Below, piece by piece: positions 15,536-48,401 of a DNA stretch of 64,000 bases (position 1 is its first letter; each line of letters opens with the position of its first letter). The notes under the pieces were generated by a model. That model saw nothing but the letters and a program-made list of their open reading frames with translations, did no database searches and had not been told where the DNA came from. This stretch comes from Exiguobacterium acetylicum DSM 20416 (GTDB lineage Bacteria > Bacillota > Bacilli > Exiguobacteriales > Exiguobacteriaceae), in NCBI RefSeq assembly GCF_000702605.1, contig NZ_JNIR01000001.1, forward strand, positions 1,850,501 to 1,914,500, read 5' to 3'. The translations under genes were made by a program, and so were the position numbers.

Positions 15536-16810
15536 TTACATGTTTTTGATGAGTTCGTCCGCGAATTCAGAACACTTCACTTCAGTCGCACCGTCCATGA
15601 GACGCGCGAAGTCGTATGTGACGACTTTCGTTTCAATCGATGTTTCCATCGATTTGATGATGAGATCTGCCGCTTCGTTCCAGCCGAGGTGACGGAACAT
15701 CATTTCGCCTGACAAGATGACAGATGATGGGTTTACTTTATCAAGTCCAGCGTATTTCGGTGCTGTACCGTGAGTTGCTTCAAAGATTGCGTGACCTGTC
15801 ATGTAGTTGATGTTTGCTCCAGGTGCGATTCCGATACCACCGACTTGTGCAGCAAGTGCATCCGAAATGTAGTCACCGTTCAAGTTCATTGTTGCAACGA
15901 CATCAAACTCTTTTGGACGAGTCAAGATTTGTTGTAAGAAGATATCAGCGATTGAATCTTTTACGATCAACTTACCAGCAGCTTCTGCGTCTGCTTGTGC
16001 TTTGTTGGCAGCATCTGTTCCTTCTTCTTCCTTGATGCGATCGTACTGGTTCCAAGTGAAGACGTGCTCTGCGTATTCACGCTCAGCAAGTTCATAGCCC
16101 CAGTTTTTGAAAGCACCCTCAGTGAACTTCATGATGTTTCCTTTATGAACGAGCGTCAATGAAGCACGTTTGTTTTCGAGTGCGTATTCGATTGCTGCAC
16201 GAACAAGGCGTTCTGTTCCCTCTTTTGAAATCGGTTTGATTCCAAGACCAGATGTCTCAGGGAAGCGGATTTTATTGACACCCATTTCGTTTTGAAGGAA
16301 CTCAAGTAGTTTTGCAGCGCCTTCGCTGCCTTCTGCGTATTCGATTCCTGCGTAGATGTCTTCAGTATTTTCACGGAAGATGACCATGTCTGTATCTTCT
16401 GGGCGTTTAACCGGTGAAGGAACACCTGTGAAGTAACGAACTGGACGAAGACATGTGTACAAATCAAGCTCTTGACGTAGAGCAACGTTCAACGAACGGA
16501 TTCCGCCGCCGACTGGTGTCGTAAGTGGTCCTTTGATTGCGATGATGTGCTCACGGATGAGATCGAGTGTCTCTTCTGGTAACCAGTTGCCTGTTTTATT
16601 GAATGCTTTTTCACCAGCGTAGACTTCTTTCCATTCGATTTTCTTCTCACCGTTGTATGCTTTTTCAACTGCTGCATCAAACACACGTACAGCTGCGTTC
16701 CAGATGTCCGGTCCTGTTCCGTCACCAATGATGAACGGAATGATTGGAGCGTTTGGAACTTGAAGTGTACCGTTAGTTACTGTGATGTTTTCGCCTTGAA
16801 GTGTAGCCAT
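15536..16810 (-). CDS. icd: Isocitrate dehydrogenase (NADP)
   Basis: A 424-residue decarboxylating isocitrate dehydrogenase of the TCA cycle. Signatures include [16 protein letters not shown] (phosphorylation-site and substrate region), the metal-binding pair [12 protein letters not shown], and [12 protein letters not shown]. The start [11 protein letters not shown] at 16810 has AAGGGGG upstream; 42 further codons of open frame upstream overlap citZ and are not conserved. It lies between citZ and mdh. Confidence 0.96.
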
Positions 16811-16880
16811 GTCTAAAATCCCCCTTAAGTAATTGTAATCTACATCAAAAATCAGGAGAGGATTGCTCCTCCCCGTCCTT

Positions 16881-17993
16881 TTAACGTTCTTCGATGGACA
16901 CGTATGTCCGGTGCGTTTCACCCGTGTAGTCTGCACGCGGGCGAATCAGACGGTTATCGCTATACTGCTCTAAAATGTGCGCCAACCAACCTGACATCCG
17001 ACTTACTGCAAAGATTGGAGTGAATAGTTCTGTATCAAGTCCAAGTGCATGGTACGTAGAAGCGGAATAGAAATCAACATTTGGTTTCAATCCTTTTTCC
17101 GATTGGACGATTTCGTCGATCTTAACTGACATCTCATACCATTTCGGCTCCCCGATTTGAGCAGTCAGCTGACGGCTCATTTCTTGAAGATGCTTCGCAC
17201 GTGGGTCGCCGTCCTTGTAGACACGGTGACCGAAGCCCATGATTTTTTGCTTGTTCTCAAGTTTATTATGAACATACTCGTCAACCTTTTCAACCGAATC
17301 AATTTCTAACAACATCTTCATGACAGCTTCGTTCGCGCCACCGTGAAGTGGTCCTTTTAACGCGCCCATCGCTGCCGTCACACCTGAGTAGACGTCAGAG
17401 AGTGTCGCGACACAAACGCGTGCCGTGAACGTCGAAGCGTTCAACTCGTGATCAGCGTGAAGAACGAGCGCTTGGTTGAAGGCTTTTTCTGCAACTTCCG
17501 TTGGCTCCTCACCCGTCAACATGAACAAGAAGTTTCCTGCGTATGATAGACCTGCTTTAGGTGCAATCGGCTCTTTTCCTTTTTTGATACGGGCGTAAGC
17601 TGTGACGAGTGTTGCGATTTGTGCCTGTAATTTGATGGCTTTAGCGTAATTCGCCTCAGTCGACATATCTTCTGATGTCTCATCGTAAAGCGCGAGTTGA
17701 GAAAGCGCTGTTCGAATCGTCGCCATCGCATTCGCCGACTTCGGTGCTGCCTTCATCGTTTCAAGAACGGCAGTCGCAACCGTTGCTTCGGAAATGAGTG
17801 CTTCCGATAGTTGCTTCAATTCCTCTTCTTTTGGTAGACGGTCGTTCCACAATAAGAAGACGACTTCCTCAAATGAGGCGTGCTCCGCCAAATCATCAAT
17901 CGTATAACCGCCATACGTCAATTGACCATCGATGATCGAACTGATTTTCGATGAAGTCGCGACGATTCCTTCTAAACCTTTAGTTTGCGTCAT
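16881..17993 (-). CDS. citZ: Citrate synthase
   Basis: A 370-residue type II citrate synthase condensing acetyl-CoA and oxaloacetate. The catalytic residues lie in [23 protein letters not shown] and the downstream NVDFYSA. The start [12 protein letters not shown] has AAAGGGGG upstream. It is the first gene of citZ-icd-mdh, with a leader of roughly 130 bases carrying a cre-like site. The length is normal for Bacillota. Confidence 0.96.
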
Positions 17994-35310: not shown

Positions 35311-36219
35311 TCATTTTAATTCTGTGTTAATCCATTCATCAATCTGTTTCACCATACCACCAAAGGCGCGGGCATCTGTGAACGATGGCAACTCAGCAAG
35401 CAATGCTTGTTTCGGCATCTTCATACCGGCTAAATGATTACGGACGATCAAATAACTTTTTGCTGCCTGTTCTTGTTTGAACATCGTGAGCGGCAACTGC
35501 AAAATACCGATGACATGCGCTTTTGATTCGAAGTACTGTTTCAACTTCCCTTCCGTATCATGTTGGAACAGACCGTTCGGAATGACAAAGACACCAAATC
35601 CACCTGGTTTGACGTATTGCATCGCCTGTTCAATCAACAAGAAATGACTATAGCTCATCCCTTCGTCTCGTTTCAAGATGTAAGAAGCGGCAGCCTCTTC
35701 ATCCGGATAATAACCGACAGGAAGATCAGCCATCGCAAGATCAACTGGATCTAACAATAATGGTCGTAAGGCATCTTGATGGGTATACGTGACTGGATAG
35801 TCGAGTAATTCCGTTACCGCTGCTGATAAACGAATCAATGTCTCATCTACCTCGACCGCCTCAGCGGCTGTACCTGTCGAAAGCTGACTTAAGACAGCAT
35901 GTAACATGCCACCCGCCCCACTCCCCAACTCAAGTAATCGGATGTCCTCCTTACCTACCAATTTCCCGATTAGATAACCAGCAAACAAAGCGACACTGTC
36001 TGGCGTCGGCAAATGGTTCGGTTGCGCTTGTTTCATCCCTTCTAAAATAGCAAGCGACACTGCCTTCCGAATGACTTCTTTATCTACATTTTCAGTATGA
36101 CGATCGTTCAATCGATCAATCACCGTCGTCAACGCTTCTAAATAGGGCATATCAAGATCACGTTCGATTTGTTTTGTTTGACGTGTTAATTCCTTATATA
36201 ACTTTTCTAACGGCTCCAT
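35311..36219 (-). CDS. ytxK: Class I SAM-dependent methyltransferase, YtxK family
   Basis: A 302-residue N6-DNA-methyltransferase-like protein. The SAM-binding motif LELGSGAGGMLHAVL is near residue 107. The position of the catalytic NPPY motif reads ADLPVGYYP, as in the YtxK family, so DNA methylation is doubtful. The helical N-terminus ends before residue 70. It precedes ackA as in B. subtilis. Start MEPLEKLYKEL at 36219 chosen from family-like beginning and spacing. The substrate is unknown. Confidence 0.88.
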   Translation of the reverse strand: MEPLEKLYKELTRQTKQIERDLDMPYLEALTTVIDRLNDRHTENVDKEVIRKAVSLAILEGMKQAQPNHLPTPDSVALFAGYLIGKLVGKEDIRLLELGSGAGGMLHAVLSQLSTGTAAEAVEVDETLIRLSAAVTELLDYPVTYTHQDALRPLLLDPVDLAMADLPVGYYPDEEAAASYILKRDEGMSYSHFLLIEQAMQYVKPGGFGVFVIPNGLFQHDTEGKLKQYFESKAHVIGILQLPLTMFKQEQAAKSYLIVRNHLAGMKMPKQALLAELPSFTDARAFGGMVKQIDEWINTELK

Positions 36220-36235
36220 GTACGTCATCCTCTCC

Positions 36236-36276
36236 AAAACGAAACGGCCCCCCCGTAGAGCGGGAGCCGTTTCTAT
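36236..36276 (-). terminator. Intrinsic terminator of tpx
   Basis: Minus-strand stem GAAACGGC ... GCCGTTTC with a G-rich loop, followed by GTTTT. It lies between tpx and ytxK. Confidence 0.75.
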
Positions 36277-36320
36277 CATTAGTTCCATTGTAACGCTTCA
36301 GCGGCGTTTGTAAACCATTC

Positions 36321-37803: not shown

Positions 37804-37836
37804 AAAAAAATCTGCCTCCTCGGGGCAGATTTTTTA
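37804..37836 (+). terminator. Intrinsic terminator of nadK2
   Basis: AAAAAATCTGCC / GGCAGATTTTTT stem with TCCTCG loop. Its T run touches the -35 box of the next promoter. Confidence 0.93.
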
Positions 37837-40274: not shown

Positions 40275-41982
40275 TTAAACGTGCAATGTTTCTTCTGGTG
40301 CACACGACCGTTTAATACGTTCGATCGCGGCCGGATCGTATTCATTTAGGACACGTTCCGCTAAGACAATCGTTCGTTCATAGTCTCCCGCTAAGAACTT
40401 CGTTTCCGCGATCGTCAGCGACATATGTATCTCGTTGTCGTGGCGACGGTACCGGTTCGCATACTGGACGAGCCGTTCGGCATACGTGACTTCGAACACT
40501 AATGTATCTAACCGTTCTTGCACATGTTTAAACGTTTCTTGGACGTCTTGACTTTGTGCGACGATCGATCGAACGTTAAACGGTAACTCTTCGAGCCGTG
40601 TTTCAAGCGTCTGCAGTGAACGATTCGCATTTCGGAGCGCTTCTTCCACCTCAGCCGGTAAGTTCGGTAATCCGAGTCGTTTCAGACGGAGACGTGTCTG
40701 CGACAGCTGATGACGCCATTCGACGATTCGTTCGCGAACTTCCGTCTCTTCTTTTCGAAGTGCCTGGAGTTCGACCGTAAAGCGTTCGTACTGAATCATC
40801 AACTGTTCTTCGAGGCGAATCGCATCGCGCATCTGATCTTCGAGCATACTGAACGGAATGATTTTTCCGGCAATCGACTCATCGAGATCTTTTGCAGCTT
40901 CAAACAGTAGCTCTTCGTCACGCTGGATCGTCTCATAATGAATCCCTAAATCTGCTGAGATTTCATATTTTTCACGTAAGATGCTGAATTCTTGTGCCAA
41001 TTGATGAATCCGTTCACGCATCCGTAGCGCTTTTTGTTTCAAGAATTGATTTTCTTTTTTTCACTTGATGACGCGCATCGACCTCACGACGGAATGTATC
41101 ATACATTTGATCAACATCGGCCGATAACTGTTGAATCGCCTCTTCCAACCCGTCGACTTCTAGCATTTCGATTTTCTCAGAGAGGCTCAGACGTTGTTCC
41201 TCGAACCGTTTGATCTCGGATTGGAGACCGAGTGGTTCAAGTGGGTACCCATCTAACGACATCTCCTTATAGCCCGCTCCAAGCTGATCAATCCGTTGAC
41301 GCAATTCATGAGCGAGAATCTTCCATTGTTTCGGTACGAGTTCGACGAGTTGACGCGTCGTTGCTACTTCTTGCTCGAGTAACAAGCTTGTTTCATACAC
41401 CTTCGTCACTTCACCTGAAGCTTCGTACTGACACATCTCATTCCAGTGCGCGTCGATCTGTTCACTTCGTTCTTCCAGACGCGCAAGCGCCGGACCGAAT
41501 GAATTCGCTTGAATCAATAATGATTTCCGAACTTGCCCTGAATCGGCTTCCCCTTGCGCTTTCAGTTCGGCTAGAACCGATTGATTCGTTTTGAACGTCG
41601 ACATCTCGACGAGCATTTCATCGATCAATCCTTCGAGTTCCGCAATCAATTGTTCCGTTACTTCGAGGTCATTCTTGACGGCGATGAACCGATATTTATC
41701 GAGCGCTTCCTCCGCCCGGTAAAGGGTCTCATCGATTTGGGCGACGTGGACCGTTAATAACTCTTCCCACGCTTGATGCCAGGAGCTGAACTTCGTCTCC
41801 GTCTCACCCGCCATCGGTAGTTGCTTTAAGTCCTGCAACTCCTTTGGAATCGATGCACTGACGATGCCTTGTTTGCGCATATCAAGTTCATCGATTTTCG
41901 CGTAGTATTTTTTTCGACTGATCATGCTAAATAGCATGACGAGTAATACGATGACGATGACTCCGATCACCCATGCCCACAT
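40275..41982 (-). pseudogene. ezrA: Septation ring formation regulator EzrA, frameshifted in an A7 run
   Basis: The first frame (41982 to 41014) encodes 322 residues with an N-terminal membrane anchor (MWAWVIGVIVIVLLVMLFSM) and long spectrin-like coiled coils, ending TKSATDA. A second frame (to 40275) continues the coiled coil for about 250 residues. Removing one A from the seven-A run at 41055-41061 (minus strand) joins them as HQVKKENQFLKQKALRMRE and yields 568 residues, the normal EzrA length. EzrA bridges membrane, FtsZ ring and PBP1 in Bacillota division. Either a sequencing error, a real mutation, or slippage. No ribosome site precedes the second part. Confidence 0.9.
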
Positions 41983-45986: not shown

Positions 45987-46079
45987 GTCCGATTTTACTG
46001 GTGGATTTATGGTATAATACGTCTATCTGTGATTTAATATTAATTTACACCTAAGTTTAAGATGCAAAGGAGATCATTT

Positions 46080-48401
46080 ATGCGCGAGAACTGGTTCAAG
46101 TTTTGGAATCACCCCCGGACGAAAGCCGTTCGGCACTGGTCGAATATCACATACGATGTTTCGTGGAACATCATTTTATTCCTCATCATAGCAGTCCTTC
46201 TCATCGGCAGCTTCTCTGTCGGAGCGGCTGGAGGATATTTCGCTTCCCTCGTCAAAGATACGAAAGCACCACCTTTGACTGAGATGAAACAAGAAGTGAA
46301 CAGTTATGCGGTGACAAGTCAAATTTATTGGGGAAGTGGCGAAAAGCTGACGAACATCTCAACGGATGAAGAACGTCAGCCGGTTGATATCAAGAATATC
46401 TCCCCTTATTTAATTGATGCGCTTCTATCAACGGAAGACGTAGATTTTTATCAACATGATGGAGTCGTTCCAAAAGCGACTTTACGAGCAGTCTTACAAG
46501 AATTGACGAATTCAGCGTCACGCACCGGCGGAAGTACGCTGACACAACAATTAATTAAAAACCAAATCCTGACGAACGAAGTTTCATTCGAACGGAAAGC
46601 AAAAGAGATCATCTTAGCGCTCCGCCTTGAAAATGCGATGTCAAAAGATGAAATTTTACAGGCATATTTGAATGTCGTCTCATTCGGACGAAATTCACTC
46701 GGGCGTAACATCGCTGGTATCGAAGCTGCCTCCCAAGGGGTCTTCAACAAATCAGCGAAAAAACTGACGTTACCACAAGCAGCTTTCCTCGCTGGTATTC
46801 CGAAAAACCCTTACTACTACACACCTTATCTACAGGGCGGTGTCGTCAAAAAGGACTTGACGCCAAGTGTCAATCGGATGAAGACCGTGTTAAAGCGAAT
46901 GTATGTCGCAAAAAACATTACGAAAGAACAATATGAAAAAGCAATCAAACACGACATCACGAAAGACTTCGCGAAACAGTCGAAACGTTCGCGTGACACG
47001 TATCCGTATGTCTATGATTTAGCAGAACGTGAAGCGACGAAGATCATGACGAAGTACTTGATGAAACAAGATGGTGTGAAAGAAGACGAAGTCAAACCGT
47101 CTGAACTGGCAGAAGTCCGGGCAAACTATCAAGATCAAGCACTGGTTGCACTCCGTCAAGGTGGATACAAAGTTCATATGACGCTAGATAAAAAAATTCA
47201 TGAATCGATGCAACAACCTGCGAAGAACAACGGGAACTTCCCTGGCGGCATGCAGTACAAACAAGTCGTGGATCCAAAAACGAAAAAAACCGTTTCGAAA
47301 CAAGATCCAGAAGAGACAGCTGCGGTCATGGTTCAGAATGAGACGGGTCGTATTCTCGGATTCGTTGGTGGACGTTACCTTGATGGAAAAGCCGATGATT
47401 TCAACCGAGCATTCCAAGCGAAACGTCAAATCGGGTCAACGGCAAAACCAATTCTCGTCTATTCGAACGGGATTGAAAATCGTTTAATCACTCCGGCATC
47501 TACCGTCAATGATGAAGAGTACTACTATCAGACCGTACCACGTCAACCAGGCGATCGTCCGATCAAGAACGAAGGTGGACGTTATCGTGGAAACGTGACG
47601 GTTCGTACAGCACTTGAACTCTCATTGAACGTACCTGCCGTTAAGATTTACGAGAAGATGAACATGTCGAACTCGATTCAAAAACTCGTCGATATGGGTG
47701 TTGAAGTACCGGATGCGATTCGTTATGCCCCTTCAGCAGCACTCGGAACGATGGAGATCACACCTGTCGAACTTGCCGGTGCTTACGCGACACTCGCCAA
47801 CTATGGTGAATTCGTGCAACCATACGTCATTTCGAAAATCACGAAAGACGGAAAAGATATCTATAAAGCAAAACCGAAGAAAAAACGAATTTATGAACCA
47901 CGAACAGCTTACCTGACGCTTGATATGATGCGTGGCGTCTTCTCAAAAGGTACAGCAACGTTTGCAAAAAGTCGATTAAACGTTCCTGGAGATTGGGCTG
48001 GTAAGACAGGTACGACGAACGATGTTAAAGACTCTTACCTTGTCGGTTCCACTCCTGGTGTAACGCTTGCCGTTTGGACAGGACACGATCAGAACAACTC
48101 GCTCATCGGTCCAACGACGTATTACCAACGAACACAAACGCTGTGGTCACAAATGGCGAATGCGACGTATGCCGCGAACAGTAGCTACTTCAAATCCGGT
48201 GCCCGCTTCACGCAACCATCTTCTGTAACAGCAAACGACTTTAAAAACAGTGGTCGCTTCAAAGAAGAAGATAAGAAGAAAAAAGCGGAAGAAGCAAAGA
48301 AAAAAAGCCGAAGCGAAGAAAAAGAAAGAAGCAGAAGAAAAGAAAAAAGAAGCGGACGCACAGAAGAAAGAAGAGCAACAAAAAGAACAAGATCAGGCTA
48401 A
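46080..48401 (+). CDS. Class A penicillin-binding protein (PBP1A family), C-terminal tail frameshifted
   Basis: As read, 773 residues. A short cytoplasmic part, one membrane helix (about 28-55), a GT51 glycosyltransferase (ALLSTEDVDFYQHDG, SRTGGSTLTQQLIKNQ) and a transpeptidase (active Ser in RQIGSTAKPILVYS, SLN in LSLNVPAVK, KTGTT). It polymerises and crosslinks peptidoglycan. After the transpeptidase the natural tail would be Lys/Ala/Glu-rich, but one extra A in the run 48300-48306 diverts it to SRSEEKERSRRKEKRSG and an early stop. Catalytic domains are untouched. ATG at 46080 has AAAGGAG. A TATAAT box lies at 46013-46018. The gene lies between tyrS and acsA, as in other Bacillaceae. Confidence 0.93.
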   Translation: MRENWFKFWNHPRTKAVRHWSNITYDVSWNIILFLIIAVLLIGSFSVGAAGGYFASLVKDTKAPPLTEMKQEVNSYAVTSQIYWGSGEKLTNISTDEERQPVDIKNISPYLIDALLSTEDVDFYQHDGVVPKATLRAVLQELTNSASRTGGSTLTQQLIKNQILTNEVSFERKAKEIILALRLENAMSKDEILQAYLNVVSFGRNSLGRNIAGIEAASQGVFNKSAKKLTLPQAAFLAGIPKNPYYYTPYLQGGVVKKDLTPSVNRMKTVLKRMYVAKNITKEQYEKAIKHDITKDFAKQSKRSRDTYPYVYDLAEREATKIMTKYLMKQDGVKEDEVKPSELAEVRANYQDQALVALRQGGYKVHMTLDKKIHESMQQPAKNNGNFPGGMQYKQVVDPKTKKTVSKQDPEETAAVMVQNETGRILGFVGGRYLDGKADDFNRAFQAKRQIGSTAKPILVYSNGIENRLITPASTVNDEEYYYQTVPRQPGDRPIKNEGGRYRGNVTVRTALELSLNVPAVKIYEKMNMSNSIQKLVDMGVEVPDAIRYAPSAALGTMEITPVELAGAYATLANYGEFVQPYVISKITKDGKDIYKAKPKKKRIYEPRTAYLTLDMMRGVFSKGTATFAKSRLNVPGDWAGKTGTTNDVKDSYLVGSTPGVTLAVWTGHDQNNSLIGPTTYYQRTQTLWSQMANATYAANSSYFKSGARFTQPSSVTANDFKNSGRFKEEDKKKKAEEAKKKSRSEEKERSRRKEKRSGRTEERRATKRTRSG

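Follow-up and report, generated by a model that had tools for sequence, protein, structure and literature searches.

A surplus base that splits ezrA in one Exiguobacterium genome, and its somewhat probable origin in assembly error

The split ezrA gene and its intact counterparts

The ezrA gene of Exiguobacterium genome G000 lies on the minus strand of the 64-kb window (the whole stretch of DNA analysed here) and is read in two overlapping frames (Table 1). The first piece comprises an N-terminal hydrophobic anchor, recognised by eye, and the N-terminal half of the coiled-coil body, its final codons being out of frame. In profile searches the two pieces matched consecutive parts of PF06160 (profile length 557), the first at positions 2-313 (E 5.1e-61) and the second at positions 317-556 (E 2.2e-36), and NF003413 was likewise matched by both. 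Together they give a whole-length match to the EzrA family. A single chain with the anchor and the C-terminal domain is not encoded in G000 as sequenced and is found in 18 of 18 relatives.

Table 1. Pieces of ezrA and runs of private length in the 64-kb window of G000 (window positions)
Feature	Position	Strand	Basis or remark
ezrA, first piece	41014..41982	-	322 codons; ORF, PF06160 and NF003413 matches
ezrA, second piece	40275..41042	-	open frame of 255 aa, C-terminal half; ORF and PF06160 match
A7 run in ezrA with surplus base	41055..41061	-	private to G000; alignments to relatives
A7 run in lysine-rich C-terminal tail of class A penicillin-binding protein gene (46062..48401)	48300..48306	+	private interior frameshift
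C7 run (C6 in 6/6 relatives)	36248..36254	+	private; judged by eye, probably non-coding and ahead of the start codon of gene 35311..36288
A4 run (A5 in 6/6 relatives)	16815..16818	+	private; judged by eye, it follows a Shine-Dalgarno-like stretch and precedes the likely start codon of gene 15536..16936
T6 run (T7 in 6/6 relatives)	37830..37835	+	private; by eye a terminator T-tract

The change of frame falls exactly on the A7 run, which reads T7 on the plus strand. An earlier note on this DNA had attributed the break to one surplus A in this run and had the frame from 41982 closing early at 41014; both statements agree with the ORF found on the minus strand and with the relatives, which are one base shorter. 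Removal of one A restores the 568 residues that the note had foreseen, and both the length and the peptide HQVKKENQFLKQKAL are letter-identical in relative G001. A -1 slip does lead to a quick stop, a TGA being reached after a few codons when read from the sequence.

All 19 genomes of the genus compared, G000 included, carry the ezrA locus. Each of the 18 others is one base shorter over the aligned region and reads through both pieces in a single frame of 567 or 569 codons. The gene is open in all relatives at 92-98% identity, the closest being G006 (98% identical over the query). The comparison with related strains that the earlier note had suggested bears out its view that a natural split would be surprising, and chance is excluded as the origin of the apparent split. 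Ten further loci from a second collection gave the same result, and, being mostly the same assemblies, were not counted again. At the run itself, each of the six aligned relatives is one base shorter. The run counts six bases in four of them; in G016 and G002 a substitution of the neighbouring base brings it to seven, yet the gene stays in frame. A run of seven alone does not break the gene; the surplus base does.

Codon changes in the first piece were 22 synonymous and 3 nonsynonymous against G001, 17 and 3 against G006, and 28 and 3 against G017; in the second piece the corresponding counts were 16 and 0, 11 and 1, and 20 and 0. Both halves bear the marks of recent purifying selection, and decay was not seen. 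Since the piece 3′ of an old frameshift would lack such constraint, the break is either very young or absent from the living genome. The indel is private to one assembly, lies in a homopolymer and falls in a constrained gene, as would be expected of an assembly error.

The genome search gave one match for ezrA in G000, so a second intact copy was rejected. A protein search with the first piece, in a length window of up to about 563 aa that left out full-length relatives, returned three proteins (81%, 78% and 23% identity; 429-512 aa), none of them a twin of the 322-residue piece, and no annotated record in the plasmid collection matched the locus. Among the literature matches listed, no title relevant to EzrA and frameshifting was found.

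Slippage of RNA polymerase or of the ribosome on the A7 run could in principle yield full-length EzrA, as a programmed or tolerated regulatory device. A runs can promote slippage, and an A11 run in tssM1 of C. rodentium is described in the excerpted source as giving about 20% frameshifting (PMC4256274). Such recoding is nevertheless very improbable in ezrA: the split is conserved in 0 of 18 relatives, the RNA fold 3′ of the run is unremarkable (z -0.75, with 46 of 200 shuffles folding at least as well), the run is shorter than A11, and similar runs break unrelated genes in G000.

Run-length changes and broken genes elsewhere in G000

The window of G000 differs from that of G001 by 35 indels of all kinds, and at five positions (16815, 36248, 37830, 41055 and 48300) G000 is the odd one out against six relatives. 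Among 54 window genes common to the seven genomes, two private net frameshifts (41055 and 48300) were counted in G000 and none in the other six, indels within 100 bases of the ORF start and 60 of the end having been dropped. The frameshift at 48300 affects the tail of a penicillin-binding protein, whose family was assigned from the intact G001 copy and whose two catalytic domains both lie upstream of the break; some relatives also vary there by whole repeats. By eye, the runs at 36248 and 16815 both lie a little ahead of start codons, the former in a hairpin-like stretch and the latter in the Shine-Dalgarno spacing, and both changes could alter expression if real.

A three-way comparison over about 360 kb gave 22 private homopolymer length changes in G000 (13 one base longer, 9 one base shorter) against 4 in its sister G001. 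The substitution branches were 7404 and 6837, only 8% apart, and because they are nearly equal the indel excess of G000 is specific to runs. An excess of indels relative to substitutions within one assembly, here 22 changed runs against 4, is also what an assembly error would leave. Runs without matching anchors and ORFs under 95-97% alignment cover were excluded from these comparisons. Among 1431 comparable coding runs of at least 4 bases, 5 were odd in G000 (2 of them near predicted gene starts) and none in G001 or the outgroup G011. Among 985 other runs, intergenic or at gene edges, 17 were odd in G000, 4 in G001 and 19 in G011. The last figure speaks against assembly error, as G011 too has odd runs outside the coding masks, though on a longer branch.

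The rate of change in G000 climbs with ancestral run length, from 1 of 1237 A/T runs of four and 3 of 534 of five to 9 of 213 of six, 3 of 69 of seven and 5 of 10 of eight or more, each of these last five being one base short. In a 400-kb block around the window, G000 has 18 A/T runs of eight against 23 and 23 in the two other genomes, and 156 runs of seven against 132 and 134. On these counts strong undercalling of long runs was rejected; it is only slight, and the want of marked shortening counts against assembly error.

The same 400-kb block contains 7 of 323 genes broken only in G000 (6 with one-base indels), compared with 5 of 320 only in G001 and 4 of 317 only in G011 (1 with an indel in each). 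Counted between two genomes, with a first shifting indel disregarded if it lay within 150 bases of the start of the ORF or within 60 of its end, interior frameshifts of G000 against G001 numbered 7 in 344 ORFs, one being the probably non-coding C7 at 36248, and 3 in 349 in the reverse direction, one being the penicillin-binding protein site encountered again from the opposite side. Around the replication origin, a second block of 400 kb gave 4 in 342 for G000 and 3 in 347 in reverse; one of the former and all three of the latter (these judged by eye) lie in small spurious ORFs. The density in G000 is thus about 11 per some 650 kb of compared ORFs, which extrapolated to the whole chromosome would make roughly 50. 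The picture is less clear-cut when indels at ORF starts are included: with G011 as the reference, net shifts occur only in G000 in 11 of 278 ORFs and only in G001 in 3 of 278, and with G001 as the reference they occur in 10 of 280 for both G000 and G011, those of G011 mostly within about 90 bases of the ORF start.

The broken genes include mutL, which in G000 is split into two overlapping frames (L109/L134, G000:C1:654634-656233) and in 18 of 18 other genomes of the genus forms one frame of 600-629 codons. The break lies at a short A run, and the 8 relatives aligned there all have this run one base shorter. The mutS gene is intact (846 codons). As sequenced, G000 has therefore lost a core mismatch-repair gene, a loss that could itself be an error; no mutL defect in Exiguobacterium was found by title among the literature matches listed.

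About a dozen genes, mutL included, look broken by small indels in the stretches of G000 that were examined. Named from the intact copies of a relative, they comprise a DASH-type photolyase/cryptochrome, a NifS-like cysteine desulfurase, a YjbM-type GTP diphosphokinase, a CYTH protein, a PepSY protein, the class A penicillin-binding protein tail, a NupC transporter, a CNNM protein and an MTS methyltransferase, with a DUF896 protein as a possible addition; a quinolinate-synthase-like gene was named by eye from the relative's protein. Most breaks are at homopolymers, that of the MTS methyltransferase is the loss of a dinucleotide repeat, and in the quinolinate-synthase-like gene one base is missing from between two G runs. 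The latter gene and the NifS-like desulfurase gene, both frame-shifted, lie close together (L054, G000:C1 about 1752833 and 1756392), and their breaks, if real, would together suggest an NAD auxotroph.

Two reference-free scans for frame switches gave many hits that are ordinary gene junctions; one scan missed mutL and the other found it. Five candidate pairs were followed up by family. DUF896 may be a further break, and the other four were discarded: one pair is IS3 orfA/orfB, one consists of two different neighbouring genes, and two share no common family. In the IS3-family element (L192:14980-16352, G000:C1 about 770000) the frames of orfA and orfB overlap close to an A7 run, an arrangement that in IS3 elements is a genuine programmed frameshift.

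Similar indels recur in G000 and affect mutL, so the cause of the ezrA break is not peculiar to that gene. Slight hypermutability is a property of short A runs in any cell, and ezrA might have suffered an isolated loss-of-function mutation, or contain a phase-variable site, unrelated to the other indels. EzrA is reported to be non-essential (PMC3215724, PMC4113482, both in excerpt). This explanation is improbable, as 21 further private run changes and the broken mutL would then have no cause, and the repeated switching expected of a phase-variable site was not seen among relatives that all have the gene open.

Origin of the surplus base

We consider it somewhat probable that the surplus A in ezrA is a residual homopolymer-length error of the G000 assembly. 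The base is private, both gene halves are constrained and run indels are in excess in the compared parts of this assembly, and it is on these grounds that error is favoured. The indels of G000 would then have arisen in sequencing and not in the cell, and the living cell most likely lacks the surplus A and makes an ordinary EzrA of 568 residues. Homopolymer indels are known to fragment genes in long-read assemblies (PMC12007338), and in V. fischeri 75 of 82 suspect loci contained an error (PMC2330054), according to excerpts of both sources.

A real and recent indel is a less probable alternative that we take seriously. A +1 slip in a short A run of mutL would have deprived the lineage of MutL, after which slippage would have frameshifted dispensable genes, ezrA among them. 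G000 might thus, again with less than even confidence, represent a wild Exiguobacterium at the outset of a mutator phase, in which ezrA, photolyase, alarmone synthesis, NAD synthesis and other functions are being lost to small frameshifts while the constraint on ezrA is still visible. The genes broken elsewhere presumably are dispensable (DASH-type photolyase, NifS-like desulfurase, YjbM, CYTH, PepSY, NupC, CNNM, MTS methyltransferase and DUF896). Judged by B. subtilis, none of the named broken genes of G000 is known to be essential, and this seeming absence of essential genes weighs against error. So does mutL itself, since random errors at the observed density would, by our estimate, hit this gene with a chance of only a few per cent. 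The split of mutL in G000 only, with mutS intact, favours a mutator. So do the changes themselves, nearly all of which lie in mono- or dinucleotide repeats and become much more frequent as runs lengthen, the pattern described for mismatch-repair mutants (PMC5854121, PMC4316635, in excerpt). The indel between two G runs of the quinolinate-synthase-like gene is no plain run change and argues against a mutator, unless a substitution came first. The excerpted sources also describe EzrA as not essential in S. aureus (PMC3215724) and mention an ezrA null mutant of B. subtilis (PMC4113482).

Mismatch-repair loss leads to single-base indels in homopolymers (PMC5854121, PMC4316635) and, among substitutions, almost only to transitions (PMC11890065). 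Substitutions and indels numbered 4313 and 382 in one Vibrio mutS mutant and 1022 and 273 in another (PMC5854121), and indels made up 6.77% of mutations in P. fluorescens, 97.73% of them in simple repeats and with an insertion bias (PMC4316635). From published substitution-to-indel ratios of 3.7 to 14, and taking 70% of transitions as nonsynonymous, we estimate that the 18 excess run changes of G000 should be accompanied by roughly 40 to 145 additional nonsynonymous transitions over the 297 kb tested for the spectrum (ORFs defined from G011). Nonsynonymous transitions numbered 300 in G000 and 250 in G001, and synonymous ones 4603 and 4268, which after scaling by synonymous transitions leaves an excess of about +30 (SD about 24). 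Only the low end of the expectation fits: if nonsynonymous transitions rose in step with the indels at all, they did so weakly. Private transitions of G000 in the window (26 nonsynonymous to 257 synonymous, or 0.10) fall inside the 0.07 to 0.10 of the other six genomes.

The raw excess of transitions was rejected as a mutator sign. Within the 400-kb block that includes the window, G000 had 3516 private G:C to A:T changes and G001 had 3015, whereas A:T to G:C changes and transversions were nearly equal; 348 of the 501 extra changes are at third codon positions and 91 outside predicted genes, so that most of the excess reflects long-term bias. Counts of stop codons made with G001-defined ORFs were biased and were replaced by counts with G011-defined ORFs, which gave 5 in each of G000 and G001.

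Nonsynonymous transversions were 239 in G000 and 194 in G001, and synonymous ones 798 and 767. In the window, the private transversions of G000 are scattered and have the highest ratio of the seven genomes (20 nonsynonymous to 28 synonymous). A B. subtilis delta-mutL strain had 2 transversions among 149 substitutions, the other 147 being transitions, and in a marker assay the mutation rate of B. subtilis rose about 85-fold on loss of MutL (PMC11890065, in excerpt). The slight surplus of nonsynonymous transversions in G000 favours error, since random miscalls would produce it and mismatch-repair loss would not. The substitution data as a whole lean towards errors, though they leave room for a mutator with many indels per substitution.

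If the surplus bases are errors, G000 is unfit for claiming the loss of ezrA, mutL, DASH-type photolyase or other split genes in the species, and private run changes set against substitutions could serve as a quick quality test for such assemblies. If they are real, the strain has only recently lost MutL and is a natural mutator, in which slippage in a short run opened a mutator phase. EzrA would then be cut to its N-terminal half: the anchor and the N-terminal coiled coils would remain, and the C-terminal coiled coils and the QNR region would be lost; in B. subtilis these C-terminal parts are described, in the excerpted source, as acting together in the interaction with FtsZ (PMC4113482).

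Comparison with known systems

The locus resembles the EzrA septation ring formation regulator (PF06160, NF003413) in its consecutive profile parts, its anchor as judged by eye and its total extent, which is that of the relatives, and it differs in being read in two frames, in G000 only. With the transcriptional slippage gene tssM1 of C. rodentium, as excerpted (PMC4256274), it shares a poly-A run at the frame change; the ezrA run is the shorter and is unconserved among relatives. Natural mismatch-repair mutators have in common with G000 a broken repair gene, indels nearly confined to repeats and more insertions than deletions, and differ in the accompanying burst of transitions, which in G000 is weak or absent. 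A further likeness, in keeping with the reading that we prefer, is to homopolymer errors that fragment genes in assemblies (PMC12007338, PMC2330054, in excerpt): single-base homopolymer indels, in one assembly only, in constrained genes. False deletions dominate the nanopore example among these (PMC12007338), whereas G000 has fewer indels and 13 of its 22 changes are insertions, a slight preponderance that counts against error.
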